This document shows, piece by piece, positions 1,865-39,800 of a stretch of 64,000 nucleotides of DNA. A program made the position numbers and the translations under genes. Every line of letters begins with the position of its first letter. Position 1 is the stretch's first letter. A model generated the notes under the pieces. It was not told where the DNA came from, did no database searches, and worked only from the letters and a program-made list of their open reading frames with translations. This DNA comes from Hyaloraphidium curvatum (Eukaryota > Monoblepharomycota > Hyaloraphidiomycetes > Hyaloraphidiales > Hyaloraphidiaceae), in the NCBI GenBank assembly GCA_025558095.1, contig JAIVFI010000002.1, positions 434,001 to 498,000 of the forward strand, written 5' to 3'.

Positions 1865-4096
1865 TGCATTGAAGTCGGCAGGTCGTATCCAGAGGACCAA
1901 GACGGACCCACGGTCAGCGCCGGCGGACTGTTGCGTATCCGCAATCTCACGGACTTTGCAGAGAGCGAACAGGCGGTCGGGGCATCGACTTCCGGAGCTG
2001 CTTACGCGGAATACGAGGCAAAGCTGCGAATTGTACCTGGCACAGAATTGCCCGTGCTGGTGCTCGAAGACAGGAGCAAGGCCTCGGTTTTCGAAGCTTA
2101 CTTGCACCAGCGCTTCATGCCACTGGCATCACAGCCGTGGCGGAATCTGGTGTTTGGGGTAAGTTGCTGCCCTTCTTGGTGGTGCGTCTCACCGACATCC
2201 TCGCAGGGCACCACAAAAGTGCGTCTTCGGACTACGGGGCAGAAGAGGGCCAGGCTTTTCCCGAGCGAGGATCTATTGTTCCTGCTGAACGATCCCAGCG
2301 AGCTTGATGATGCCGTGGAGTACGTGTCGGCCAGCGCCTGGCCCAGCGGGGGCCGGACGCCTGCCGTAAAGGCGCAAGTCACGCACATTCACATTCCGGA
2401 GACGTTATCGTCACCCGATGGCCCGCTTGAACGCGTTAGAGTCGACCTCTTGAACATTGACGACTCGGGCCCCATGCGCCTCGACTTGTGGGGACCGTCG
2501 GTCCGTTATTCGGACCTGCTGAAGCATGGGCAGCAGTACATCGTCGTGAATCCACTCCTGGAGCTGTCCTCAACGCCTCCGACGTTGGAGTACGCCAGCG
2601 CTACCATCATTTTTCAGATCCCGACCGCGCACCGGAGTCTGGTCTCGCTGCGGAGTCTGGTCTCGCTGATTCCAGGTCGCGCGGCGAAAGACTCTGATTC
2701 CAGGTTGGTTGCTGTGTACAGCTGGAAAGGGAACCTGCGTTTGCCCGGAGGAGCTGAAGGCAATGATCGTCGCTTGTTTGCATTTAGCACCAACGTGTGC
2801 CGGCTTCAGACCCTCGCCGCGAGCACTTCGAGTCGCGTATCGAAGACGCTTGCCGGCTTGCGAGACATGTCTCAACATCCGGAGAGGCTCATGATCTCCG
2901 ATCTCGAAGAAAACATGCGTGGTGTGACTCTTTTGGGAAGGGTCTCGCTCGTGCGTGGGCACGTGAGTGGGGTGGCTCCATTTGGTCGGCGAGGTGCTTG
3001 ATTGTTTCGCAGCTCTCAATGCGGGGGGCGGACAGCGATGATCCAAAGGCCTCAAACGCCTGCATTCGGGTCGTGGACGAGACTGGATGTGAGTTCCTGG
3101 GCATCCTTCAACCCTTCAGCGTCTCGACATTCAGGCCCGCAGCACGGGTCGACGTGACGCTATGGGAAGGGCTAGCTGCGTGCGATTTCGAGCCTGGGCA
3201 CGTTCTGCTCCTCGAGAACTTGTGGTCAAAGCTGAGCGCATCGCGACGTCTCGTGTTGTCGGCGGCTCCAAGACACCAAGCATCATTGAAGAACAGTGGG
3301 TAAAACTGCGCCACGAAAGTGTAAGCCAGCCGCTGATTGCAGACTGTGCAGTCTCCACATCACGATCGCTGCTCTGTTCGCCATGGCTTGTGCGCATGGT
3401 CACTTTGGCCTCAGCACAAGACGCCGAGCTCCTCAACATCACGGCTCGCGCAACGATTGTGGGCTGGAAGGCAGTTGGAGACGCGTTCACGCACCCGATC
3501 CGTAGTTTCTTTGCCCAGTCATGTGCACTTCTCACGGCCTGACACTGCCATTCGCAGACGTCAAGTGCCGACGTCCGCTCAACGAACGAAACGGACCGGG
3601 GTTCTTCTGCAAGCACTGCGATGTCGATGCGGTGGAAGTGGACAACGTGCTTTCCGTCGCCTGGATCCTCGACGATGGGACCCGCCAAATCACCGCCATT
3701 GGACGGCAAAGTGTATCTCATGTCAGTGCAGGAGCCGGCGATCTTCTTTGCGCTCGTGACTCACGCACTCCATCACCCGGCAACTGAATGCTGACCCAGG
3801 AGATCTTGGGAATTTCGCCCAACGAGCTCTATTATCTTGCGGACGCCGAACGGCGCCGGGCGCTTCGTAAAGCTACAGGGACCGAATGGCTTTGCTCCCT
3901 GAGCTACAGTTACGGCGCGGATCGAGAGGTGGAGTTCATCATCGCGGTTCGAGATGGAAGCTCATCGGCAGATCAAGCCCCAGATTTACCTGGACAGCGT
4001 CGTACCTGCTCGAGACCCCGCCCTGTGGTTAATCGATCAGTGTCCGGCCACGCAATCAAGGACCGAAGCTCGCACGTGAACCGACGAAGGTCCTGA
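1865..4096 (+). CDS. MEIOB/RPA1-like single-stranded-DNA-binding protein with OB folds (approximate gene model)
   Basis: Multi-exon gene whose pieces follow the order of MEIOB, the meiotic RPA1 paralogue that binds ssDNA during recombination. OB fold 1 lies around 2420-2620 (DDSGPMRLDLWGPSV, then QQYIVVNPLLELSS). OB fold 2 begins at ISDLEENMRGVTLLGRV and continues across an intron to IRVVDETGCEFLGIL. A CxxC-containing third OB lies around 3560-3710 (GPGFFCKHCD, VLSVAWILDDGTRQIT), followed by ILGISPNELYYLADAERRRA and REVEFIIAV. Clear introns are 2159-2206 (48 nt) and 2963-3012 (50 nt); others near 3300-3355, 3475-3560 and 3710-3800 are probable but not phased. No ATG is in frame at the 5' end, so an upstream exon is likely missing, possibly the open stretch 1577-1864. 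An alternative frame near the end (stop about 4078) also looks coding. Generic RPA1 paralogy cannot be excluded. Confidence 0.55.
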
Positions 4097-4154
4097 AGCT
4101 CGTTTCTCAAGAAAGCACGGACTTGGGCGCGCGTGCCTTCCCCTTATTTTGACT

Positions 4155-4663
4155 TCATTGCTCCCGCCATTGTGTTCCGCATTTCGGATTGGCGCATTTG
4201 TAGAATGTTGTCATGGGTTCGTCCGCGGATCGCGTCTGCACTTGGAAAAAGAAGGCACGCCGGTGCTCGCAGCGCGGACACAAAGCTGCCGAAGGTGATC
4301 AATAGAAAGCCGACCAGATCCAGATAAGCCGAACCATCGGTCTGGTCGACATTCTCCCAGGCTTTCTCCCCGCCGAGCACGTCGTCCAGCTCCTTGCGCT
4401 TAAACGTCGTCTTTGACGCGTGCTGCGATCGGAACCTCCTGTCGGTCCGCGTCGTCACAATAACTGTGGGCGGCACCCACGGTCTTCATGATCTCGAAGA
4501 CATAGGGGCATGTCTGGCAAAAGAACTCCTGCTGTCCGCTGGTGGAACCCGTCCGGAGGAGCAGCAGGTTGGAGCAATGAGGGCAGTACCACCTGCTCCG
4601 GTCAAATGGCAATCGAATCGATGAATGTCTCCGAAGGATCGCGAGTCCGGTGGACACACACAT
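4155..4663 (-). CDS. RPC11: RNA polymerase III subunit C11 (RPC10/POLR3K family)
   Basis: Small zinc-ribbon subunit of nuclear RNA polymerase III, needed for RNA cleavage, termination and reinitiation. The N-terminal ribbon is YCPHCSNLLLL then FFCQTCPYVFEI; the linker is KRKELDDVLGGEKAWENVDQTD. After an intron of about 46 nt comes the C-terminal TFIIS-like ribbon CPRCEHRRAFFFQVQTRSAD, EPMTTFYKCANPKCGTQWRE, which keeps the QTRSADEP loop with the Asp-Glu pair used for cleavage, and a stop at 4155. The junction between YVFEIM and the KRKELDD block (about 4440-4510) cannot be phased with a clean GT..AG pair; an intron with a base error or an unusual splice site is likely. The start at 4663 adds about 24 residues before the first zinc cysteine, more than usual, so a later start or an extra 5' exon is possible. 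Confidence 0.85.
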
Positions 4664-4811
4664 CTGTTTCCTGCGAAAGGTTGAGCCGGCTTCGGTGTGA
4701 AAGGGAACGACGGTGGTAGTATTCGGCGGCCGCGGCCAGGTGCCCACGAAACTGACCGCACTCTCCGTCCCACCGCGCGCCGGCCACTCCTCGTCCGCGG
4801 CTGCTACAACC

Positions 4812-6757
<1,946 letters not shown>

Positions 6758-27807: not shown

Positions 27808-29478
27808 GCGCGCGTCCCCTTCCCGACGCTGATGATCGATCGTTTCTATGCAAATTGGGCGCGCGCCTTATCCGCTGCCAGTTAGAAATCGGAACAACAA
27901 CAAAACCACAGACCCCCCGGCGTCGCCACTTTCAAAGGCCCTAGTGCGGGCGGTTCGGAAACACCGGGCCCAGGAAACCCGCATGGCCGCTCTCCAGATG
28001 TAGCGACGCGGCAACCGTTACCGTCGTGGCAGTCCCCAACGCGGAAACCAGCAAGACAGCTCCACCGGCGCCACTGCACAAGCAAACCAACTTTCCCTAC
28101 CTCCGGCGCTACATCGCAGACGACTTCTATATTCAGTGTTGCCTTTTGAACACCTTTTTGAAGAATGGTCCCATCACCAAGCTACAGGTCAAATACAACT
28201 CCAGATCCCGCCTTGCCTCTGCTTCCAGCCGCGCCTGCTCCTGTTTCAACGCTCCCAAGTCCGTCTCCATTTGCCGCCAAATCTGCCCAATCCTTTCCAC
28301 TTCCCTCTAGAGTTCATGGATTGATGAGCTCGCTTCGACATTCGGTCGCCGTCGTGCTGCATCCGTCCCTAACGTCCGTGCGCAGTTTGAAGCTCCATTG
28401 TCATGCACAGAGGGGGTTTGTGGTCCGGAGACGTTCCGAGATGGCAAAGGCGGGATTTGAAGCGCGTTCGCGAGGAAGAAGTGCGAACGCAGACCGCGGT
28501 CCAGAACAGCACAGCACGTCACCCTCGACGACCTCACCCTCAGCTCGTAATGCCGCACCGATATACGGTGGAGAACCGCGCGGCCGTCAGTAGTCTCTTA
28601 CGCGATTCCTGGTTCCACCCCTGGGATGGCAGTACGGGCTCGCGCGTGGACCGTGGCCCGAAAAACTGGAAACGAACTGCCGAGCGAACTCCCCTCCCCG
28701 ACCTGCAAACGCATCCCGCTTAAACGGCACCTAGGCGGCGCCAGGAGCATCTCGGAAGGCGATGCCGACGGCGCGGCTCCGTTTTGCGCCCGATCGTCGT
28801 CGCTACGACGACCGAAGTGCCGCGGTTGTGTCGAACCGCTGCGCTCCCGTTTCGCGACGTGGCATTCCACAGAAAGGTGGCCGAGCTCCCAGAATTCCAC
28901 GTCGGAAAACGACTCAAAGGGGATCTCGGCCGCTCAGAACCCGATTCTGGGGAACCCGCACCGCATCGGTTTGGCGCTAGACCATGTCGCCCGCCGGAGC
29001 ACTGGAAGCGACGGAGGTCAGGTGGTAGCGGCTCTCCTCCTCTGGAGCTTCAATGGATAAAATGCTTCGCTCGCCGGTGTCTGGAGCCGCGTTGGCATCC
29101 GCCGGCGCGCGGACGGTGCGGCGCCCGAATCCCTCGGAGCTAGTGGCCGATTCGAAATAAGTGCAAAGGCGGCGCGAGTTCCTTCCGGTCTAATCGTTCG
29201 GCCCTATGGAGTGGAGCAAGGAGCTTTCGCGGGTCCCGGGAGTCCGATCCCGCTTTGGCTGGTCCGAGCGCGCCGGAGCCGGGACCCCCCGGTCAATCGA
29301 CTCGGGCTGGTGAAACCCCCGGCAACCGGGCGGAGCTCCCAGCGGCAGAGGGCCGGGAACTGTATGGAATCGGGCTTTTTCGACGCGCGGCCTTGGGTTT
29401 AGGCGGGCCGTGTGGGCGCCGCACATTCCATCACCGACCCGCACGCCCGCCCGCCCCACCCGTGCCCCGCCCGCCACG
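27808..29478. other. Long stretch without a confidently recognised gene
   Basis: A plus-strand open stretch around 28026-28310 includes PPLHKQ-like and FPYLRRYIADDFYIQCCLLN residues that look protein-like, but it has no in-frame ATG and matches no family I know. Stretches at 28403-28723 and 28784-29143 are Arg/Pro-rich and probably random in this GC-rich DNA. The 5' end of the membrane-protein/Fanzor unit, or the left end of a mobile element, may lie within 28.6-29.4 kb; I see no clear inverted repeat. Confidence 0.35.
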
Positions 29479-30900
29479 ATGGGCGTCGGCAAGGGAAGAT
29501 GGCAGGGTGTTTCTCTGCCGCCGCGGCCCCCCCCGCCGCCGCCGCCGCCGAAGCCCAGGAGGGGCAAGCGGTGGACCATCCCCGAGAAGGGCGAGAAGCC
29601 GAGCCTGCTGTGCGCCGCCGTGCTCGCCCTCCTCGGCACCATCAACGCCGCCTCCGCTCTCGCGCTTGCCGTGCACGGCACCTCCAGCCTCCCCACCCCC
29701 ACCCCGGTTGTCCTTGCCGACCCTGCCCACCACGTCATTGCGCCCCCCCAAGTGACGCTGCTCCATGCCGCCTGCATGATGGCGGCCGTCGCCGCCCTGT
29801 TCGCACTGGACGCTGCGATGGACTTGCTGGCTGAGGTGCTCGGGGTGAGCGAGGAGGTCGGCTGGATGGGTGCCGTTGCCCGTTGGGTGGGGTCGGCGGC
29901 GTCCCGGGTGCGGGAGTGGGCGAGGAAGAATATGGGCTGCCGGGCACGCAAGAACGGCGGATTTCCGGTCGCTCAAATCGTCACACGCACCCTAGCCGCT
30001 TCGGCCGCCGTCATCGCCATCTTGGCCGCGATGAGGCGTGCACTCGGCGGATCCGTGACCTGGTCCAACCTGACCGACGCGGCCATGCTCCTCCCTATCG
30101 GCTTCTTCACCGTGACGATGCTCCAGTGGATCCAGGCCGATTCGGCGCCCCGCAAGAGCAAACAGCTTCGCCTTCTGCGCAGGTGCAGGACCGCCAAGAT
30201 CCTCAAGCCCTCCGCCGCGCCGCCCGGATTCGTCAACGTCGCCAGCGCGACCGGACTCGTATTCGTCGCGGCGTTTGCGTACATTCTGTCCTCTCCGTGG
30301 TTGCATTCGTTCCCGTTCGACGCCGGCGTCTCCATCCTCGTCGCGGCAGTCTTTGCCTTCGCCGACAGCCAGAGATGGCACAAGTCGGACACAACTGGCC
30401 GCTGGATCTCGGACGTCAGGATGACCGTCGGCGACTGGGTGAATGTGTTGTCAGATCCGTGCCTCGTAACCTTTCGCAGCGTGCGCGCCCACGTGAGCGA
30501 GGCACTGGAGCGGGAGCGCAAGCTACGCGGCCTCTCGCTCGCCGCACCGAACCGCCATGCCCGCCGGCGCACGACGCGCACGGCGCGCGGCCTCTCTCGC
30601 CCAAGGCTGCTGCCTCGGGCGCCGCGATGCCGCCTGCTCTTGGCCGTCGCTCTGGGAGTGGTCCGCGTGCTCTTCGGCGCGCGGTCGCTGGTCGGTAGCA
30701 TCACCGCGCTGGCAGCGCACGTGCTCGAGACCCTGTGGAGCTGGGCGGCCGAGGAAGGACAGAAGGCCGGCCCGCCGACGGTCCCTGGTGCCTGGATGGA
30801 CACGGACGAGGGGCCAAGGCAGCGCCTTACCACTCTGCTCACCGGTAGGCACATGCACTCGGGTCGTTGGCAGAGCGTTCTGATCGACGTCGTCCACTGA
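29479..30900 (+). CDS. Multi-pass membrane protein of unknown function, upstream of the Fanzor gene
   Basis: Single open stretch of 473 residues from the ATG at 29479 (the same frame is open further upstream without an ATG). The N-terminus has a Pro run and a basic patch, followed by about six to seven hydrophobic segments: near residues 43-65 (SLLCAAVLALLGTINAASAL), 92-115, 165-185 (TLAASAAVIAILAAM), 195-217 (AMLLPIGFFTVTMLQWI), 250-300 and 385-420. Basic Arg-rich loops sit between. No family recognised. It is 117 nt ahead of the Fanzor ORF on the same strand and shares its frame and GC-rich codon use. It could be a host gene, mobile-element cargo, or a 5' part of the same transcription unit. 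Confidence 0.6.
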   Translation: MGVGKGRWQGVSLPPRPPPPPPPPKPRRGKRWTIPEKGEKPSLLCAAVLALLGTINAASALALAVHGTSSLPTPTPVVLADPAHHVIAPPQVTLLHAACMMAAVAALFALDAAMDLLAEVLGVSEEVGWMGAVARWVGSAASRVREWARKNMGCRARKNGGFPVAQIVTRTLAASAAVIAILAAMRRALGGSVTWSNLTDAAMLLPIGFFTVTMLQWIQADSAPRKSKQLRLLRRCRTAKILKPSAAPPGFVNVASATGLVFVAAFAYILSSPWLHSFPFDAGVSILVAAVFAFADSQRWHKSDTTGRWISDVRMTVGDWVNVLSDPCLVTFRSVRAHVSEALERERKLRGLSLAAPNRHARRRTTRTARGLSRPRLLPRAPRCRLLLAVALGVVRVLFGARSLVGSITALAAHVLETLWSWAAEEGQKAGPPTVPGAWMDTDEGPRQRLTTLLTGRHMHSGRWQSVLIDVVH

Positions 30901-31017
30901 AGCCAAGGAGATCAACTGGTTCGTCCAGTCCGCCGCGCAACAAGGCTCCGACCACGATCAACTTGCACGCACCTTTACCTCCCCCGCCTTCGCGGTTCAG
31001 GACAGACGCCTTTCTCA

Positions 31018-34000
31018 ATGGCTCACGGGTTCGTCTATTCCGCTTCGGGCCACGCGCATTCTGATCAAATGCCCACAGTGGACGAGATCCTCGCCGCGAA
31101 GCTGTGCCGCGCGTGGTTCCGCGCCCCGTGGGACCCTGACGCGCAAGCCTGGATGTCTGTTCCTGCGGCGGCCCAGAGCCGCTCGACCCGGCGGCGGCGG
31201 CGCAGGCGGTTCAGGCTCCTCCTCGGTCCCGTACTCGCACTCGCGACCAAGACAGCTTGGCTCGCCAACGAGGCTTTGCTGAGCATAGGTGCGCAGGCTG
31301 CGGAGCTCAACGGCGGGGAACCTGCACTGGGAGCCGACGACCTCCCGCCGGTGCGTTGCAAGACCCGCCAGGTGATCGAGGCCGAAATTGCATTCCTGAG
31401 CGCTCCCAGGTAGGCCGCGGTGGTGATGGCCCTTCCGAGCGTCGGTCCTCATTCGGACCATTTCGAAAGGCAAGTGCCCGGCTCCGAGGGCACGGCCAAG
31501 GGCAAGGGTAGGGCCAAGGCACCTCCTGCAGGAGCGGACGGAGACGGGTTGGAGCCGCCGCCGAGCAAGGTCGGCAAGGTGTGCGCGAGGTGCGGGGGGG
31601 CCGACCATGAACGGTCCAGCAACAGGCTGTGTCCGTATCACAAGCCAACCATCAAGGCGACGGCGAAGAAGGACGTCGAGCAGGTGACGGGCAAGACGGT
31701 TCCGTCGACCATCAAGCTCCCCCTTAAGGGCCTCTGCACCTCGTCACCCGCGTCTTTCGCATCTGTTCACGACACGCTCGCGCTGGCCTACACGCCCGTG
31801 GCAATCGCCGCCGCGCTGCTGCTCAACGAGGGCGTGGCGGCCTGGGTCACGGATAACCGCGTGCTGCCCCAGCTCAACCAGTCGCTGTTGCGCAGGGTCT
31901 TTTTCCTTTGCGCCTCCGGGGAGCTACGCATTCAGGCGAGCGATTCCTTACAGGGACAGGAAGAGTTCTTGCGGTCCTTAGAGCGCATCTGGCTGGGAGA
32001 CGGAACCACGCCGGGCCTTCGGGCGAGCTACCCTGCGCGCTTCGCAGCATTTCGGGCTCCAGGGGCTCAGCGGATTGCGTCGCCGGACCGCATGATCGAC
32101 CAGTACTTCAGCTCCGAGTTCGACAACATCTACAACGCGACGTTCAAGGACTATCAAGTCAACATCGAGGTGCACCTGGAAAGCGCGGCGAACCGCAACT
32201 TCAAGAAGCTCGCCGAGCTCCGGTTCGACAAGCTTCCCTGGTGGAACGCGGTGGTGGACGGCGACCCGGAGAAGGAGCTCCCTGCCGAGCGCAAGTCGGC
32301 GATTTTTTCAAGCCTCCTTTCCGCCAGCAAGAGCCGCCGCCGCCCGCTTAAAATCTTCAGCCGCACCGCCGCGGCCGGGGATCATTACCTGACGGAGCAG
32401 GACGTGGAGCTGGCTGTTGCCGCTGGCCAGTCGCTGACATATGGCTGGAAGACGCCGTCGATGCAGCATCACCGAAGCGCTGTGCTGGGGCCACACTTTC
32501 TGGAGGCGCTGCTGCGTGATGTCCGCGCCGGGCGCGACCTCCACGTTTCCATGCGAGGGGAATTTGCGTCGTGGTTCGAGGAGGAGTTCGAGACGATTAT
32601 GGAGACCGTGGTGCTCAACAAGGTGGCGAGGGCGCAGCTGGCCAAAGACCTCGTGGCCCGCATCACGAGCACCGGTGCGCACAAGTTCAGCGCGCGGCAC
32701 ATAGCGTTGGGGGAAGGTCCGGCCGCCATCCCCTGGGATACATTGCAGGCCGCTGCGAACACCGGAAACGACCTTCTCCTGCACCGTCGGTCGGGCAAGG
32801 CGGTCGTGCAGAACACGCTGCAGCACGGCACGATTGTCCTGCTCGTTACGTTCCTCCAGGAGGCATGGGCACGGCAAAACGATATCGAAAGGAACGGGAT
32901 GCAAGGCGGCGTGAAGGACTGGAACACGCGGCTACGGTTTCTGCACAGGTCGAACTGCCTGATCGGTGCTCTCTATGACATTACCGTGCCTGCCGGGCCC
33001 TTTGATCCGCAGTGGCAGCCGCCCTTGCCGCCCACCTCGGCCCTCCTGCCCTACTTCAACTACCAGACCAAGCACGTCAAGGTCGCTACATTCGATGCGC
33101 TGCTGGAGGTTGTGAAACGCCACAAGCGCATGTTTCCCGTCGAGCACGCAGCCGTCATGGACGATCACTTTCCTTTCGGGGAAGAGTTTGACGAGACCAA
33201 CGAGTACCACCGGCGGCGTCTGTGGGCTGCGGTCTACGATACGGACAGCCTGCTGCAACGCGAGGTCCGAGGCGGCTTCAGGGACAACTACGTTGGGGAC
33301 AAGACGCGCGCCTTCGCCTTCGCCGTGTCCTCCAATGGTGTCGAGGCTTCGGTGCTCTTCAACAAGGCGGTGCCGAACGACGACTTCGAGCCGGAAGGCG
33401 AGGCTCGCGAGGCCGGTGGTGCGGATGACGAGGCCAGGATCGTCCGCGAGGCCGCCGCCGCTGCCTTCCACGCGGGCCTACGCAGGGGCATGGAGCGGGC
33501 GGTGCAGTTCGAGGACCAGGCGAGGCGCGGCGAGATCAAGCTGCACGTCCAGGGTCTGGACCCCGGACCGGGCGGCTTCACGCTGGCTCGGCGCACGGAG
33601 GATGGCGAGGCTCGGAGCAAGGTCTTCTTCTACTCGTTCAAGCAGTATCACTACGAGTCTGGCGTGACAAAGCGCAAACGGCAGCAGGAAGCCCTGACAA
33701 AGACGATGCACGTGACCACGGCCGCCGGGCCAGTCTCGATCCAGAACATCATCAACGCCATCCCCGCGAGCACGATCACCGCCGTCGACGACAGCCACCG
33801 CCGCAACATGTACATCCTCACGCATCTCGATACGCTGGTCCGCTTCTACAGCGAGTTCCGGGACGAGCGTTTCCAGAACTACCGCGGCAAACAGATCGCC
33901 CTGGAACGCATGGCGCAGGAGCTGCTCGCGATGGAGCATGAGAGCAAGACCGGTTCGCCGAAAACCGTGGAGACCAAGGCGGCGCGGCGGAACCGGAAAG

Positions 34001-34596
34001 GCTGGCGCCGGTGGTTCAGGAGCAAAAGGAGGAAGCGCGCCGGCGGGAATCGTTTGCCGGAGCGCTACGTGATCGTTTGGGGTAACGCCAAAGTCGGCAG
34101 CATGTCCTGGATCAAGAAGCAGATGCGCGGCCCGTTCAAGAAGCTCATCGCGCTGCTGGAGGCACGGTCTGACGTCGTCATAGTCATGGAGGACGAGTAC
34201 GGCACGAGCAAGTGCTGCCACTCGTGCGACCAGTGGAGCCTGGACACGCGCAAGTGCCGGCAGATGCCCAAGGAGCTGGAGCCGACGTACCGGCCCCCGG
34301 TGGTGGCGGAAGGGGGGCAGGGGGAGGAGCGCAAGTGGCACGTACCGATGGTCATCCCGACCAAAAAACCCTGGTATGTGCGCTGGTGAGTGTGCTGGCT
34401 TCTGATCCTTTTCTCGCTCTAACATCGGCAAAGGTGCTTCAACCCCGCCTGCCCCGTCGACCACATCCACCGCGACGTGAACGCGGCGCTGAACATGCTC
34501 CGCCTTTACGAGTGGCGCCTCTGGCAGTGGCGCACGGCGCCGGGGATCGACGTGGAACAGACGGGGCGGCCCCCGGGCCTGAGGCGCTTGTCGTAG
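31018..34596 (+). CDS. Fanzor: eukaryotic TnpB-like RNA-guided nuclease homologue
   Basis: Homologue of transposon TnpB, the Cas12 ancestor. Model: exons 31018-31409, 31470-34385 and 34434-34596, 1156 residues; starting at the ATG at 31426 instead gives 1040. An N-terminal zinc-knuckle-like motif (CARCGGADHERSSNRLCPYH, 31582-31641) is followed by a long domain I cannot name. The C-terminus is diagnostic: a possible RuvC-I Asp in ITAVDDSHRRNMYIL (codon 33787 or 33790); YVIVWGNAKVGSM; a strand ending VIVMEDEYGTSKCCHSCD with the acidic RuvC-II position (34189-34197) beside the first Zn pair (codons 34216, 34225); then, after the second intron, CFNPACPVDHIHRDVNAALN with the second Zn pair (34435, 34450) and the RuvC-III Asp (34474). 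The weakest point is RuvC-I, which lacks the usual DxG. A basic linker (RRNRKGWRRWFRSKRRKR) could bind RNA or serve nuclear import. Activity and mobility are unproven. Confidence 0.85.
34386..34433 (+). other. 48-nt intron splitting the Fanzor zinc ribbon
   Basis: GTGAGT donor at 34386 and AAG acceptor at 34431-34433. Unspliced, the ORF hits TGA at 34387-34389 right after VRW. Spliced, TG plus G gives Trp and the frame runs on into CFNPAC, HRDVNAALN and a TAG at 34594-34596. Size and splice sites match the other introns in this window. Confidence 0.9.
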
Positions 34597-34810
34597 AACT
34601 GCACCCATCATCTGGGTAACCTTCAACTCTTCAGAACTCCCATCGACCGACGGCGGCTCGCGAGGGCTGGCATACCCTAGGACCGAGCTCGGTGAACGAT
34701 GGGATCTCATTGGCCGCTTACAGTCGGGATTCTCGAGGATCTCAGCATTCCGATTTGTAGTTGGAAGCGGACTAAGGACGTCATCGATGGCCCCGTCGGC
34801 ACGACGATCT

Positions 34811-36794
34811 CTATTCGGTCGATGCCGCGAGTACTACAGTTTTGCTTTGCTGAAGCTGCACGATCTCGTACGATCAGCAAAAGGAAAGGCGGGGGATTCG
34901 AGGAGGACACGCACACTTTCGGCCAATCGTACTCGAGCTCATGGCGCTGGAATCCCGAATCGATCAGGAGCCGGTCGGCGGCCGCCGGACCCCTGCTGCC
35001 GTACGGGTATGGCTCGGGCTGGATCCGCTCCCGATCGATCTGGTGCAGGAGCGGGGTGAAGATCTTCCAGGACTCCTCCAGTTCATCGTTGCGAACAAAG
35101 TTGTTCTGATCGCCTTTGAGCACGTCGAGGATCAAGGATTCGTAGGCGTCGGGGATGTAAGCGTTCGAAAAGCGCTGCGAGTAGGAGAGGTCGAGCTCGG
35201 CGATGGTAGGCTCGTTGCTGTAGCCAGGCGTCTTCGTCATGGTCTTGATGTAAACCGCTGAGGTAACGTAGCATGAGAGGTCGGTCCGGCCCGTCGCGGG
35301 TGAGAGTTAGCATGTGCAAACCTTCGTTGGGCTGGATCCGAATCACAAGCTCGTTGCGGGCAATCTTCGAGAACAATGGGTTCCCTGGCACGTCCCGGAA
35401 CTGGATGCGGATGTCTACTTTCTGGTCGTCGAGCGCTTTGCCGCACTTGACGATGAAAGGCACGCCTGGCAAGGCAGCGGCCTCAGTAGGAGCCCCGAAA
35501 TGCACCGGCTTTCTCGTTCCCACCATCCCACCGCTCGTTGCTGACGTAGAATCTCGCCGCTGCAAAAGTAGGCACGATCGAGTCTTTCGGCACCGTCTTG
35601 TCGTCCTTGTACCCCGGCTTCTTGCCATCGAGCGACGCGGTGTACTGCCCGAGCACGCAGTCCTCGAGCGCGAGCGGGCGGATGTACTTCAACACCCGGA
35701 CCTGGTGCGGAACACCATCGGCCGCAAGCGAGAGCGTGCGGTTAACGCATGTGACCGCCACCAACATGAGCCGTACGTACCTTTTCGTTCCTGACATCTT
35801 GGGCGTCCAGCGACATTGGCCGTTCCATAGCAATGAGGCTGAGAACCTGGAGCAGGTGGTTCTGCATGACGTCTCTGATGATTCCGAACTGCGGTCGCGC
35901 GGGCCAGTCAGCCGTTGAATGCGTCGCTCCGCGATGTTGCGCACCTCGTCAAAGTAGCCGCCTCGTCCTGCACATAGCGTCAGCGAGCGCCAACGTGCTC
36001 GAGCCCGGCCCATCCTCAGCTCACCTTCGGTACCGATCATTTCCTTGAAAGTGATTTGCACGTGCGCAATGTGGGAGCGGTCCCAGATGCCGCCCAGAAA
36101 CTGATTCGCGAACCGCAGTACCAGCAGCGACTTGACCATCTCCTTGCCGAGGTAGTGGTCGATGCTGCCGGCGGACGGAAGAAGTTGGCGCAGGCAAGGA
36201 GGAGCGGCGACGACTGGCGTCGTACCGGTAAACTTCGTCCTCTGCCCAATGTTTGGAAATGGCGCGGTCAAGCTCGTTTGACGACGGCAGGTCCGACCCG
36301 AACGGTTTCTCGATGATGAGGCGGTTGTGGCCCCGCTTCGAGTAGCACAGCGACCGGAGGTTCGCAGACGCGGCGGCGAACACGTTAGGCGGCAGTGCGA
36401 GGTAAAAGATCCTGTTTGCGACCGGGCGGTCGCCCTCGAGCTCCGTACAGAACGCGTCGAGCTTGCGGAAAGGCTGCGGGAGGTTGAGCATGGTCGTCGG
36501 GGGCGAGTCTGGGCATCGCACCTCTTCGACGTCGTATTGGCCATCGAGGTAGCGCAGCAACAAACGGAAGCGCGCCAGGTGCGTCTCGTCGCCCGGGGCG
36601 CGCAGCTTGATGTTCTGCGTGACACGCGCCCGGAAGTCGTCGAGCGGCAGCTTCGTGCGCGCGTAGCCGACGAGCGCGCACGAGGGCGGCAGAAGGCCGT
36701 TCTTGAACAGGTTGAACAGCGCCGGGAAAGTCTTTTTGAACGCGAGGTCTCCGCTCGCGCCGAGCACAACGACTGTCGTGTGCTCGTCGGCCAT
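34811..36794 (-). CDS. ZWF1: Glucose-6-phosphate 1-dehydrogenase
   Basis: First enzyme of the oxidative pentose phosphate pathway, making NADPH in the cytosol. Eight exons: 36794-36226, 36164-36025, 35967-35945, 35888-35781, 35701-35524, 35465-35322, 35257-34917 and 34855-34811; 1548 nt, 515 residues, family-typical. [20 protein letters not shown] holds the NADP fingerprint GASGDLA, and [11 protein letters not shown] the catalytic signature with Asp-His and Lys. Further blocks are [70 protein letters not shown] and [15 protein letters not shown]. Exon 3 is a 23-nt microexon. A longer in-frame reading begins at 36974, but 36794 matches the family N-terminus. Its 3' end converges on the Fanzor gene, 214 nt between stops. 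Confidence 0.96.
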
Positions 36795-36868
36795 TGATGT
36801 GGGTGACGTGGGGGACAGATGGCGGGTGATCATTTCATGTTTACACTCCATCCAAACCAATTCCCTCT

Positions 36869-39800
36869 CTAGATACGAAGGACAAGCTCCAAAATCCGCT
36901 GCAACGGCTGCGTCACCACCTCGTAGACCAGGCGCGGCACCTTCTCCTTCGTGACTCCGAGGTACTCCAGCCATTCTGCCGGGGTAGCATCGCCCATCAC
37001 CCGCAGCTGGGGCTCGAACTTGACCGGCCCGGTGGCCACGAAGCGCAGGATCGCCAGGTCATCCGGCGCCTCCTCGACGGCGGCGGTCCGGGGTGGTCCA
37101 CTCGTTGGCTCCTCCGCAGTCTCGGCCGACGCATATGCAACGTTGTGCCCTTGGCCTGCATCCAGATGGGCGTTGCCTGCGCGGAGGGCTTTCAGGTAAA
37201 GGTTGCCTAGCTCCATCAGATACTTGTAGAGGGAGAAATTCAAGGCCACGTCGACCGGTCCGGAGAAGTCCGCGTCGAATGAGTACTCGACTGTCCCGAT
37301 TGCCCGAAGAGCAGCAGATCGAAGCATCATGGCGAATGCTGGCAATACGAGGATGGGGATCGACCTGAACGATTCCGTGTGCCGAAACCAGGCGCTGTTT
37401 GACCACGACCTTTCCTCAGACGTGCCGACGGGCCTTGCCGCCGCCTTGGCAACACGGAGGGTCGCTAGCGACACGGCCGTGCTGTGGCGGCGCGTGCCGG
37501 GCTCCGAGTCGCGATGCTGTGCCTGCAAATCCAGCACAAGCTTCGAAAGCGAGGAAATTGCGCAGTCCAGATCCCGGAAATTGTAACCGAAAAGAACGAC
37601 GAACCCATTCCGGACGACGGCACAGACACGTCCTGCAGAGTCGCCAAGAATGTCTGGGGGGCGTGCATCTTTCGGTCGTTCACTCAAGCTCCGATGTGCA
37701 GCTTCTGCCCCGGAGAAGCCAAAGGATGTCTCGCTCGGCACGCTTCCCAAGCCCGCCGACATCGCTTTGGAACGGACGTAGGCCCGCTTTTCTCCCACCA
37801 GACCAGTGACTTTGCGGAGCACGTGGGTAATGGTGGGAAACGATCTCCTGGAAGCCATGGCTCTGAGTGATCCCAGAACACCGGCAAAGTCGGCTGCCAG
37901 TGGCGCACGAAAACCTCCCCCTCGAGCTTCACGGAGCATTGAGGCGCTCAAAAAAGACAAGTCCAAGATGATGATCCGTTCAAACTGGTACTCCAAGCTG
38001 CACTCCGCCCCGAGCATCTGGAAAAGCACTAGCAGGTCGCCCCCGAAGGAGTCAGGGATTCGAGCCGAGAGAAGCATGTTCGAACAGAAGTTCACGGCCT
38101 TGGCCTCCATATGTCCCGAAAGACGGCCTTCTGACCTCATCGCAATCGAGGTTGCCGAAAAAAGCCCGGTATGTCGCAGCTCCTGCGGAGTTTCTGACCG
38201 AACATAGTCGAGCACAGCATCGTTCACCGACCACGACATGTTGCCAATCGAATGACCAAGCTCCGCAGCCAATTGGACAGAGCGGATCCTTACGATCACT
38301 GAAACAGACATGGAAGCTTGCGGCGGCGAAGCATTGGAGTTCCGCTCCGGATCCGTTGCGTCAACGTTCAATGCATTGAGCGACGCGGACGCAATTCTCG
38401 GTTCGGAGATCAGCTTCTGACGTCCGCGACTGCTTCCCGCAGTAAGAGAGGCGAGAGAACCTAGCACACGAGATTGCCGCCGCGCATGACCAGGATGTAG
38501 GCTCAAATCATGCGCAACGCGTCCTCTGTCACCATGTCCCGGTGGGCTCCAGCATCTCTGCAAGAACATCACGTCTTGCAGATGCCTGAAGTTCAGTCTT
38601 CCCGTGATGACGGGTATACCAATCAAAACAGAACTTTGCACCATCCCGTTTGATGGCGTGAGAGCTAGATTGAAAGTAGACGGCCCCACCGTGCCGTTAA
38701 ACGAATCCTCCGAGGCGTATCCGTGACGCACGCGGCATGCGACAGGCCCCAACTTCAATGTTGCAGACGTCGATAACCGGGAAATTCCGTCGCGCGTGAG
38801 GAACAGAAGAGCGTCCGAACGGTCTATCTCCATTGTGCCTGTAACTCTGGATAGCGGTTGGCATGTTAAATCCACGCGGGTGGTGTCCAGACGGAGGAAG
38901 ACCGATATCGTATCGTGCTCCTCGCCCACGCGAACGATGGCTTCGAGACTCTTGGGCAGCTCGCTAAATGAACTACGGGGGTCAAGGTGCTCCCTCCGTA
39001 CTGTAATCTCCCGGGCGTTAGCTGAAAGAGAATCTGGCGCTGTCCAAGCTGTGGATGCGGCTGTGGCAATCTCCGCCACAAAGGGAACAATTGAAGGGAA
39101 AAGAGTGTTCTCGCTCCTTGCAACGACAAACTCCACGTGCATGCGCCGACGAAGATCCTCGCGCTCCTTGAAGGGTGTTCTGCGCTTGAGGGCGTTCTCT
39201 GAGCGCACCGTGAGAGAGAAGGACGGCACCGAGAGCATGTGCGTTCCAGGCTCGCTGCTTGAAGTGTCAGTATGTGGAGGTGTCGACGGCGTTGCGCTCC
39301 ACTAGCCTTTGCAAACTCGAGGCATTCGAGGGTGGGTGCTTCGCGCCAGACAAACGTTTCGGATGGATGCGCACAGATCCGCCGCGCTCAAAGAGAAAGG
39401 CCGCGCGCACATTCAGCAGCAACGGCGGTTGGTTGACTTCCATGGAATCGGCCGTGCCCTTCTCTTCCTTTGCGGAGTCTGGGCGGCTTCGGGGGAGAAC
39501 CTGAAGCATCCGGAGCCTGCTGGACCGCCAAACCGCGGCCATGGCGCTGACATGACGAGCCAGGGTCGAATCGAGATCTGCATCAAATCCTCCGACGGAA
39601 CCATTCGCGACTAACAACTGTCCGGACGAGTCCCGCCTCACGTCCACGTTGCCTCTTATCTCGGGAATGCGGAGACGATTCCGGTTGAGCGACCCACTAT
39701 GTGCCGACGGATGGAAATGCTTCTCGTTGGTGACATCGAAACCGGCAACGAACTGGAGGCAGAGACTCCGTATCACTGCTTGGTTGATGTCCAAGTTCGC

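Follow-up and report, generated by a model that had tools for sequence, protein, structure and literature searches.

A putative Fanzor, highly diverged yet apparently intact, in a TA-flanked DNA transposon of Hyaloraphidium curvatum

A plus-strand gene in the 64,000-nucleotide stretch of Hyaloraphidium curvatum DNA analysed here, which we call the window (bases 434001-498000 of contig C2, in an assembly of 31.9 Mb in 55 contigs), carries motifs that recall the C-terminal part of TnpB and Fanzor proteins, and it raises the question of whether the gene encodes a Fanzor with its catalytic residues in place, and what kind of element carries it. We consider it quite probable that the gene is a Fanzor, most likely a Fanzor1, residing in a TA-targeting DNA transposon that bears terminal inverted repeats (TIRs) and no recognisable transposase. 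The features on which this reading is built are collected in Table 1.

Table 1. Features of the element in the window (window positions), and paired transposase and TnpB-zinc-ribbon matches elsewhere in the genome (contig positions)
Feature	Position	Strand	Remark
Left TA target-site duplication	27869..27870		TA at 6 of 6 resolved left ends
Whole element, 6902 bp	27871..34772	+	homology to the C12, C18 and C20 copies ends there
Left TIR	27871..27894	+	TCCGCTGCCAGTTAGAAATCGGAA; leading G absent in the window copy
Conserved DNA block, ~630 bp	28701..29330		common to families with Fanzors only ~35% identical
Open frame, 496 codons	29410..30900	+	hydrophobic stretches, without known domain
Fanzor exon 1	31069..31409	+	ATG 31018 in the window copy only
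Intron 1 (GT...AG)	31410..31469	+	in-frame stop at 31411 spliced out; 1-nt indel within it in C18 and C20
Fanzor exon 2	31470..34386	+	
N-terminal zinc-knuckle-like CxxCGGxDHxRSxxxLCPxH	31582..31641	+	retained in family 2
Putative RuvC-I Asp (D828, 1156-aa numbering)	33559..33561	+	GLDPGPGG, DPG motif
Putative RuvC-II Glu (E1040, 1156-aa numbering)	34195..34197	+	displaced Fanzor position, E-x6-CxxC
Zinc ribbon, first pair (CHSC)	34216..34227	+	
Intron 2 (GTGAGT...AAAG)	34387..34434	+	within the zinc-ribbon loop; 1-nt indel in C18
Fanzor exon 3	34435..34596	+	CFNPAC, RDVNAALN, C-terminal GRPPGLRR
Putative RuvC-III Asp (D1117, 1156-aa numbering)	34474..34476	+	HRDVNAALN
Right-end hairpin including the TIR	34712..34772	+	candidate guide-RNA 3' scaffold; z -2.03
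Right TIR	34748..34772	-	
Right TA target-site duplication	34773..34774		
Host sequence directly beyond the right end	34775..34794	+	would be the guide, if the right-end RNA is typical (PMC10432273, PMC10711439)
DDE_3 + TnpB-zinc-ribbon pairs (1)	C3:625520-632972, C5:5540-12992, C6:418739-426191, C6:603866-611318, C7:376497-383949		
DDE_3 + TnpB-zinc-ribbon pairs (2)	C7:469872-477153, C11:285476-292928, C15:545749-553200, C28:412683-420135, C35:360604-368056		

Gene structure and catalytic residues

The gene is best read as three exons (31018/31069-31409, 31470-34386 and 34435-34596), whose spliced product would have 1156 residues if translated from the ATG at 31018 and 1139 if translated from the ATG at 31069. 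We prefer the latter start, since it is kept in all four copies of the element, while the former is present exclusively in the window copy and reads TTG in the other three; the 1040-1156 residues given in the earlier note are thus better replaced by 1139. Both introns are supported because their length varies by 1 nt among sister copies while the splice sites stay intact, and a second, more distant family of the same genome has an intron at nearly the same place as intron 2, slightly upstream of whose start a GTATGT offers an alternative donor.

All the motifs listed in the earlier note were found where it had placed them and in the order it had given: the N-terminal zinc-knuckle-like motif (CARCGGADHERSSNRLCPYH, 31582-31641), which has no Pfam match, followed by MEDEYGTSK-CCHSC (34186-34227), CFNPAC (34435-34452) and HRDVNAALN (34468-34494). 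The published Fanzor pattern, D-X(125,275)-[TS]-[TS]-X-X-[C4 zinc finger]-X(5,50)-RD (PMC3627910), is present in the predicted protein with a longer zinc loop than usual, of about 53 residues as compared with 12-18, and in the form D-X(125,275)-[TS][TS]-xx-CxxC...C...C-X(5,50)-RD it was matched by the protein itself and by none of 20,000 shuffled versions of it. A DPG at RuvC-I is a further Fanzor feature, and a Glu six residues ahead of the first CxxC distinguishes them from ordinary TnpB (PMC10711439). The window protein has the former as GLDPGPGG at 33559 (ADPG in family 2) and the latter as E-YGTSKC-CHSC, with exactly six residues between Glu 34195 and CxxC, which bears out the displaced RuvC glutamate already suspected from the sequence.

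The second family (contigs C7, C15 and C21) encodes Fanzors about 35% identical to those of the window family, or family 1, and keeps the D, the E, TSK, RD-NAA and the N-terminal zinc-knuckle-like motif in the form CxxCG-DH-RS-LCP-HK, though the first of the zinc cysteines is missing from its C-terminal ribbon. The D-E-D set is invariant across both families. By this comparison, the first catalytic Asp moves to 33559, given that neither of the two residues proposed for it in VDDSHRR (33787 or 33790) is conserved, the second being Ala in the C18 copy and family 2 differing there. As to the Glu, which had been left between 34189 and 34195, it is the latter that is conserved and the former that is not, and the final Asp at 34474 was correctly assigned, being conserved in family 2.

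Kinship with Fanzor and TnpB proteins

The window protein gave no significant direct match to Pfam, NCBIfam or PDB sequences; the Pfam TnpB zinc-ribbon model remained below threshold (E 0.25), and a PHROGs transposase family, which appears to be TnpB-type judging by the position of the match, hit the RuvC-III motif in the C-terminal 205 residues (E 0.0042). Profile-profile comparison of families 1 and 2 with a clade that has members on contigs C14 and C31, among others, yielded an E value of 2.3e-9 with the DPG motifs aligned, and a score of 80.9 compared with 20.7 for the reversed control and at most 24.7 in 60 shuffled profiles. This clade is made up of more typical Fanzors than the window protein: its C14 member matched the Guillardia theta Fanzor1 weakly (E 0.0086) and the Pfam TNB domain at E 9e-4, short of the curated cut-off. 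On the other side, the profile of the clade found no Fanzor in the PDB. The chain of homology from the window protein through this bridging clade to the characterised Fanzors appears consistent, with modest links at the characterised end. Scans and searches of viral contigs, prokaryote genomes and phage found no relatives.

AlphaFold2 models of the whole protein and of its C-terminal half, made from shallow alignments of 14-15 relatives and with intron 2 read through, reached a mean pLDDT of 37 and 38, and Foldseek returned no significant fold match for these low-confidence models; its lists ranked the Guillardia Fanzor seventh and included several MOC1 resolvases, which are RuvC-like, all non-significant and not counted as evidence. 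Such models, together with the missing direct domain or PDB match, are what might be expected of an unrelated transposon protein, such as a zinc-finger transposase, whose likeness to TnpB/Fanzor is accidental, but this is barely credible in view of a signature that none of the shuffles reproduced, a profile score against the Fanzor clade that greatly exceeds those of the shuffled and reversed controls, and the joint presence of DPG and E-x6-CxxC. The earlier proposal of a Fanzor homologue with an intact D-E-D set is supported, because of the conservation in family 2, the profile comparison with typical Fanzors, and the DPG and displaced Glu. The gene is apparently a highly diverged yet intact Fanzor, and we infer that its product may act as a nuclease.

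In the C14/C31 clade, the Fanzors carry long N-terminal regions in which Cys/His clusters recur; these look like zinc knuckles and go unrecognised by Pfam. Contig C37 (excerpt 3390-6509) holds what may be an additional Fanzor-like gene, marked by IDFGWKN and, at the N-terminal end, CVDCSRRGHPSKASFYCEQH, for which a C-terminal exon was looked for and not found.

The transposable element, its copies and its mobilisation

The earlier note made no mention of a transposon around the gene. Family 1 consists of four copies, those of the window and of contigs C12, C18 and C20, with 94-97% DNA identity. Each element begins and ends in imperfect inverted repeats, and wherever the ends are resolved, TA stands on either side; over families 1 and 2, the left flank reads TTA in five of the six copies whose left end is resolved. 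The window element thus has the TIRs and TA target-site duplication of Tc1/mariner elements, which likewise place its gene, as is the case for Fanzor1, in a eukaryotic transposon other than IS607. The 3' end belongs to the stretches that differ least from copy to copy, and a pattern search for short TIR-only derivatives turned up only the ends of the four elements. A minus-strand glucose-6-phosphate dehydrogenase gene (34707-36974) appears to end near the right end of the element, and a minus-strand frame at 36869-39238 matches the Csf1 C-terminal region (Pfam E 1.5e-7).

The spliced Fanzor frame is open in three of the four copies, that of C20 being frameshifted, and dN/dS is 0.24-0.34 in most copy pairs and 0.55 in the closest one, the latter value appearing as weak evidence of selection. 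The copies are also mosaic: up to ~31070 it is C20 that is near-identical to the window, and beyond that point it is C12. This block-wise difference suggests recombination or gene conversion. Could the gene then be a Fanzor descendant that has kept its residues while its nuclease is no longer used, surviving only since the copies are young? The C20 frameshift, the dN/dS of the closest pair, a mosaic pattern that fits gene conversion, and the zinc cysteine lost in family 2 would suit such a history, which we regard as unlikely, although deserving attention, against three intact copies, the lower dN/dS of most pairs, and a catalytic set that does not change across two families sharing about 35% of their residues. 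An intact Fanzor remains the preferred reading.

The conserved block in the 5' part of the element was found in ten places (four family-1 elements, three family-2 elements, C37, C3 and C5) at 74-100% identity to the window, with no Fanzor match at the block-bearing places of C3 and C5. The block was rejected as a gene, all six of its frames scoring alike in tblastx, and as a structured RNA, having neither covariation support nor an Rfam match. The open frame that follows, at 29410-30900, is broken in two copies and has a dN/dS of 0.5-0.8, so it is probably not a constrained gene; as a transposase it was rejected, having no domain besides being broken in those copies.

Within 27871-34772, no transposase was recognised and no DDE match was obtained of the kind that an autonomous Tc1/mariner element has as its own. 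TIRs combined with TA duplications are characteristic of Tc1/mariner-type DDE transposases, and the DDE_3 transposase domain has ~39 matches across the genome, ~10 of which are followed on the same strand, some 7.4 kb downstream (nearly all 7.38 kb), by a TnpB zinc-ribbon match (Table 1). Four of these paired copies have right ends that are 99.6-99.9% identical and then followed by TA, and for this reason the paired elements were probably active recently. In another family (C5), the conserved 5' block is preceded by an 822-codon DDE_3/HTH_33 transposase frame. Since DDE_3 transposases are numerous, ~10 of them are paired with TnpB-zinc-ribbon proteins, and the C5 family shares the block, the window element is likely mobilised in trans by a genomic Tc1/mariner-type transposase. 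The other way of supplying a transposase would be the window protein itself, considering that no other enzyme is recognisable in the element and that the Fanzor is its only clearly constrained gene; this is very improbable, given that such ends point to the DDE transposases in which the genome is rich. Moreover, TnpB and Fanzor proteins are known to be guided nucleases rather than transposases (PMC10432273).

A candidate guide RNA, and comparison with known systems

In known Fanzors, the guide RNA arises from the right end of the element, and the guide is the flanking DNA (PMC10432273, PMC10711439). The corresponding stretch of family 1, its last 62 nt, forms a hairpin with a z-score of -2.03, compared with +1.09 for the left-end control. 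So does that of family 2, over 84 nt (z -2.85, compared with +0.09 at the left end), and the signal is weaker in the transposase-bearing family (z -1.1 to -1.5). These z-scores are modest, and as a guide-RNA scaffold the hairpin is only suggestive, because the folded stretches were picked after the fold was seen. For the Fanzor reading, we propose that the window protein would fold as a TnpB/Fanzor RuvC nuclease, that a guide RNA would be read from the right end, with this hairpin as scaffold and the flanking host DNA as guide, that the complex would cut uninserted alleles of the site beside a TA-ending TAM, in keeping with the TTA left flanks, and that repair of the cut allele would copy the element back, with transposition itself probably carried out in trans by one of the genomic Tc1/mariner-type transposases. 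Decidedly doubtful, in our opinion, is a wider proposal, namely a large and still active group of mariner-type Fanzor transposons with an added N-terminal zinc-knuckle region, in which the block at 28701-29330 would act in guide-RNA production or regulation, and transposase-less families would use the transposase of sister families and keep their own nuclease.

Why eukaryotic transposons retain Fanzors is an unsettled question in the field, and here several Fanzor families share one compact genome, some of them accompanied by a transposase in near-identical copies and others not, which would allow transposition and guided cutting to be compared side by side. The window protein also extends the sequence range of Fanzors past the reach of current domain models.

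TIR elements with TA duplications that carry Fanzor1 genes, some alongside a transposase and some not, have been on record since 2013 (PMC3627910), and Fanzor activity was demonstrated in 2023 (PMC10432273). The window Fanzor is, in our reading, a new and strongly diverged example of this known kind, on which its size, the zinc-knuckle-like motif at its N-terminus and its extended zinc-ribbon loop are variations. With Fanzor1 proteins such as SpuFz1 of Spizellomyces punctatus and GtFz1 of Guillardia theta, it shares the C-terminal D-E-D RuvC signature, the DPG, the displaced Glu and the zinc ribbon, besides being encoded by a eukaryotic transposon, and SPu-1 likewise has TIRs and putative TA duplications (PMC3627910). 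It differs from them in the N-terminal motif, the ~53-residue loop and a divergence too great for Pfam, in its 1139 residues compared with 633 in SPu-1-1p, and in having Asp at the third catalytic position, where GtFz1 has Asn (PMC11423790). Closest in layout are Fanzor1-only Mariner elements such as PUl-4 (Bao and Jurka 2013, PMC3627910), with a Fanzor, TIRs and TA duplications and without a transposase; in contrast to these, the TIRs of the window element matched no autonomous element, and it has a noncoding block conserved in other families. The bacterial TnpB of IS200/IS605 and IS607 shares the C-terminal catalytic layout and has D-hydrophobic-G where the window protein has DPG, and the latter is further set apart by its displaced Glu, its introns and its eukaryotic transposon.
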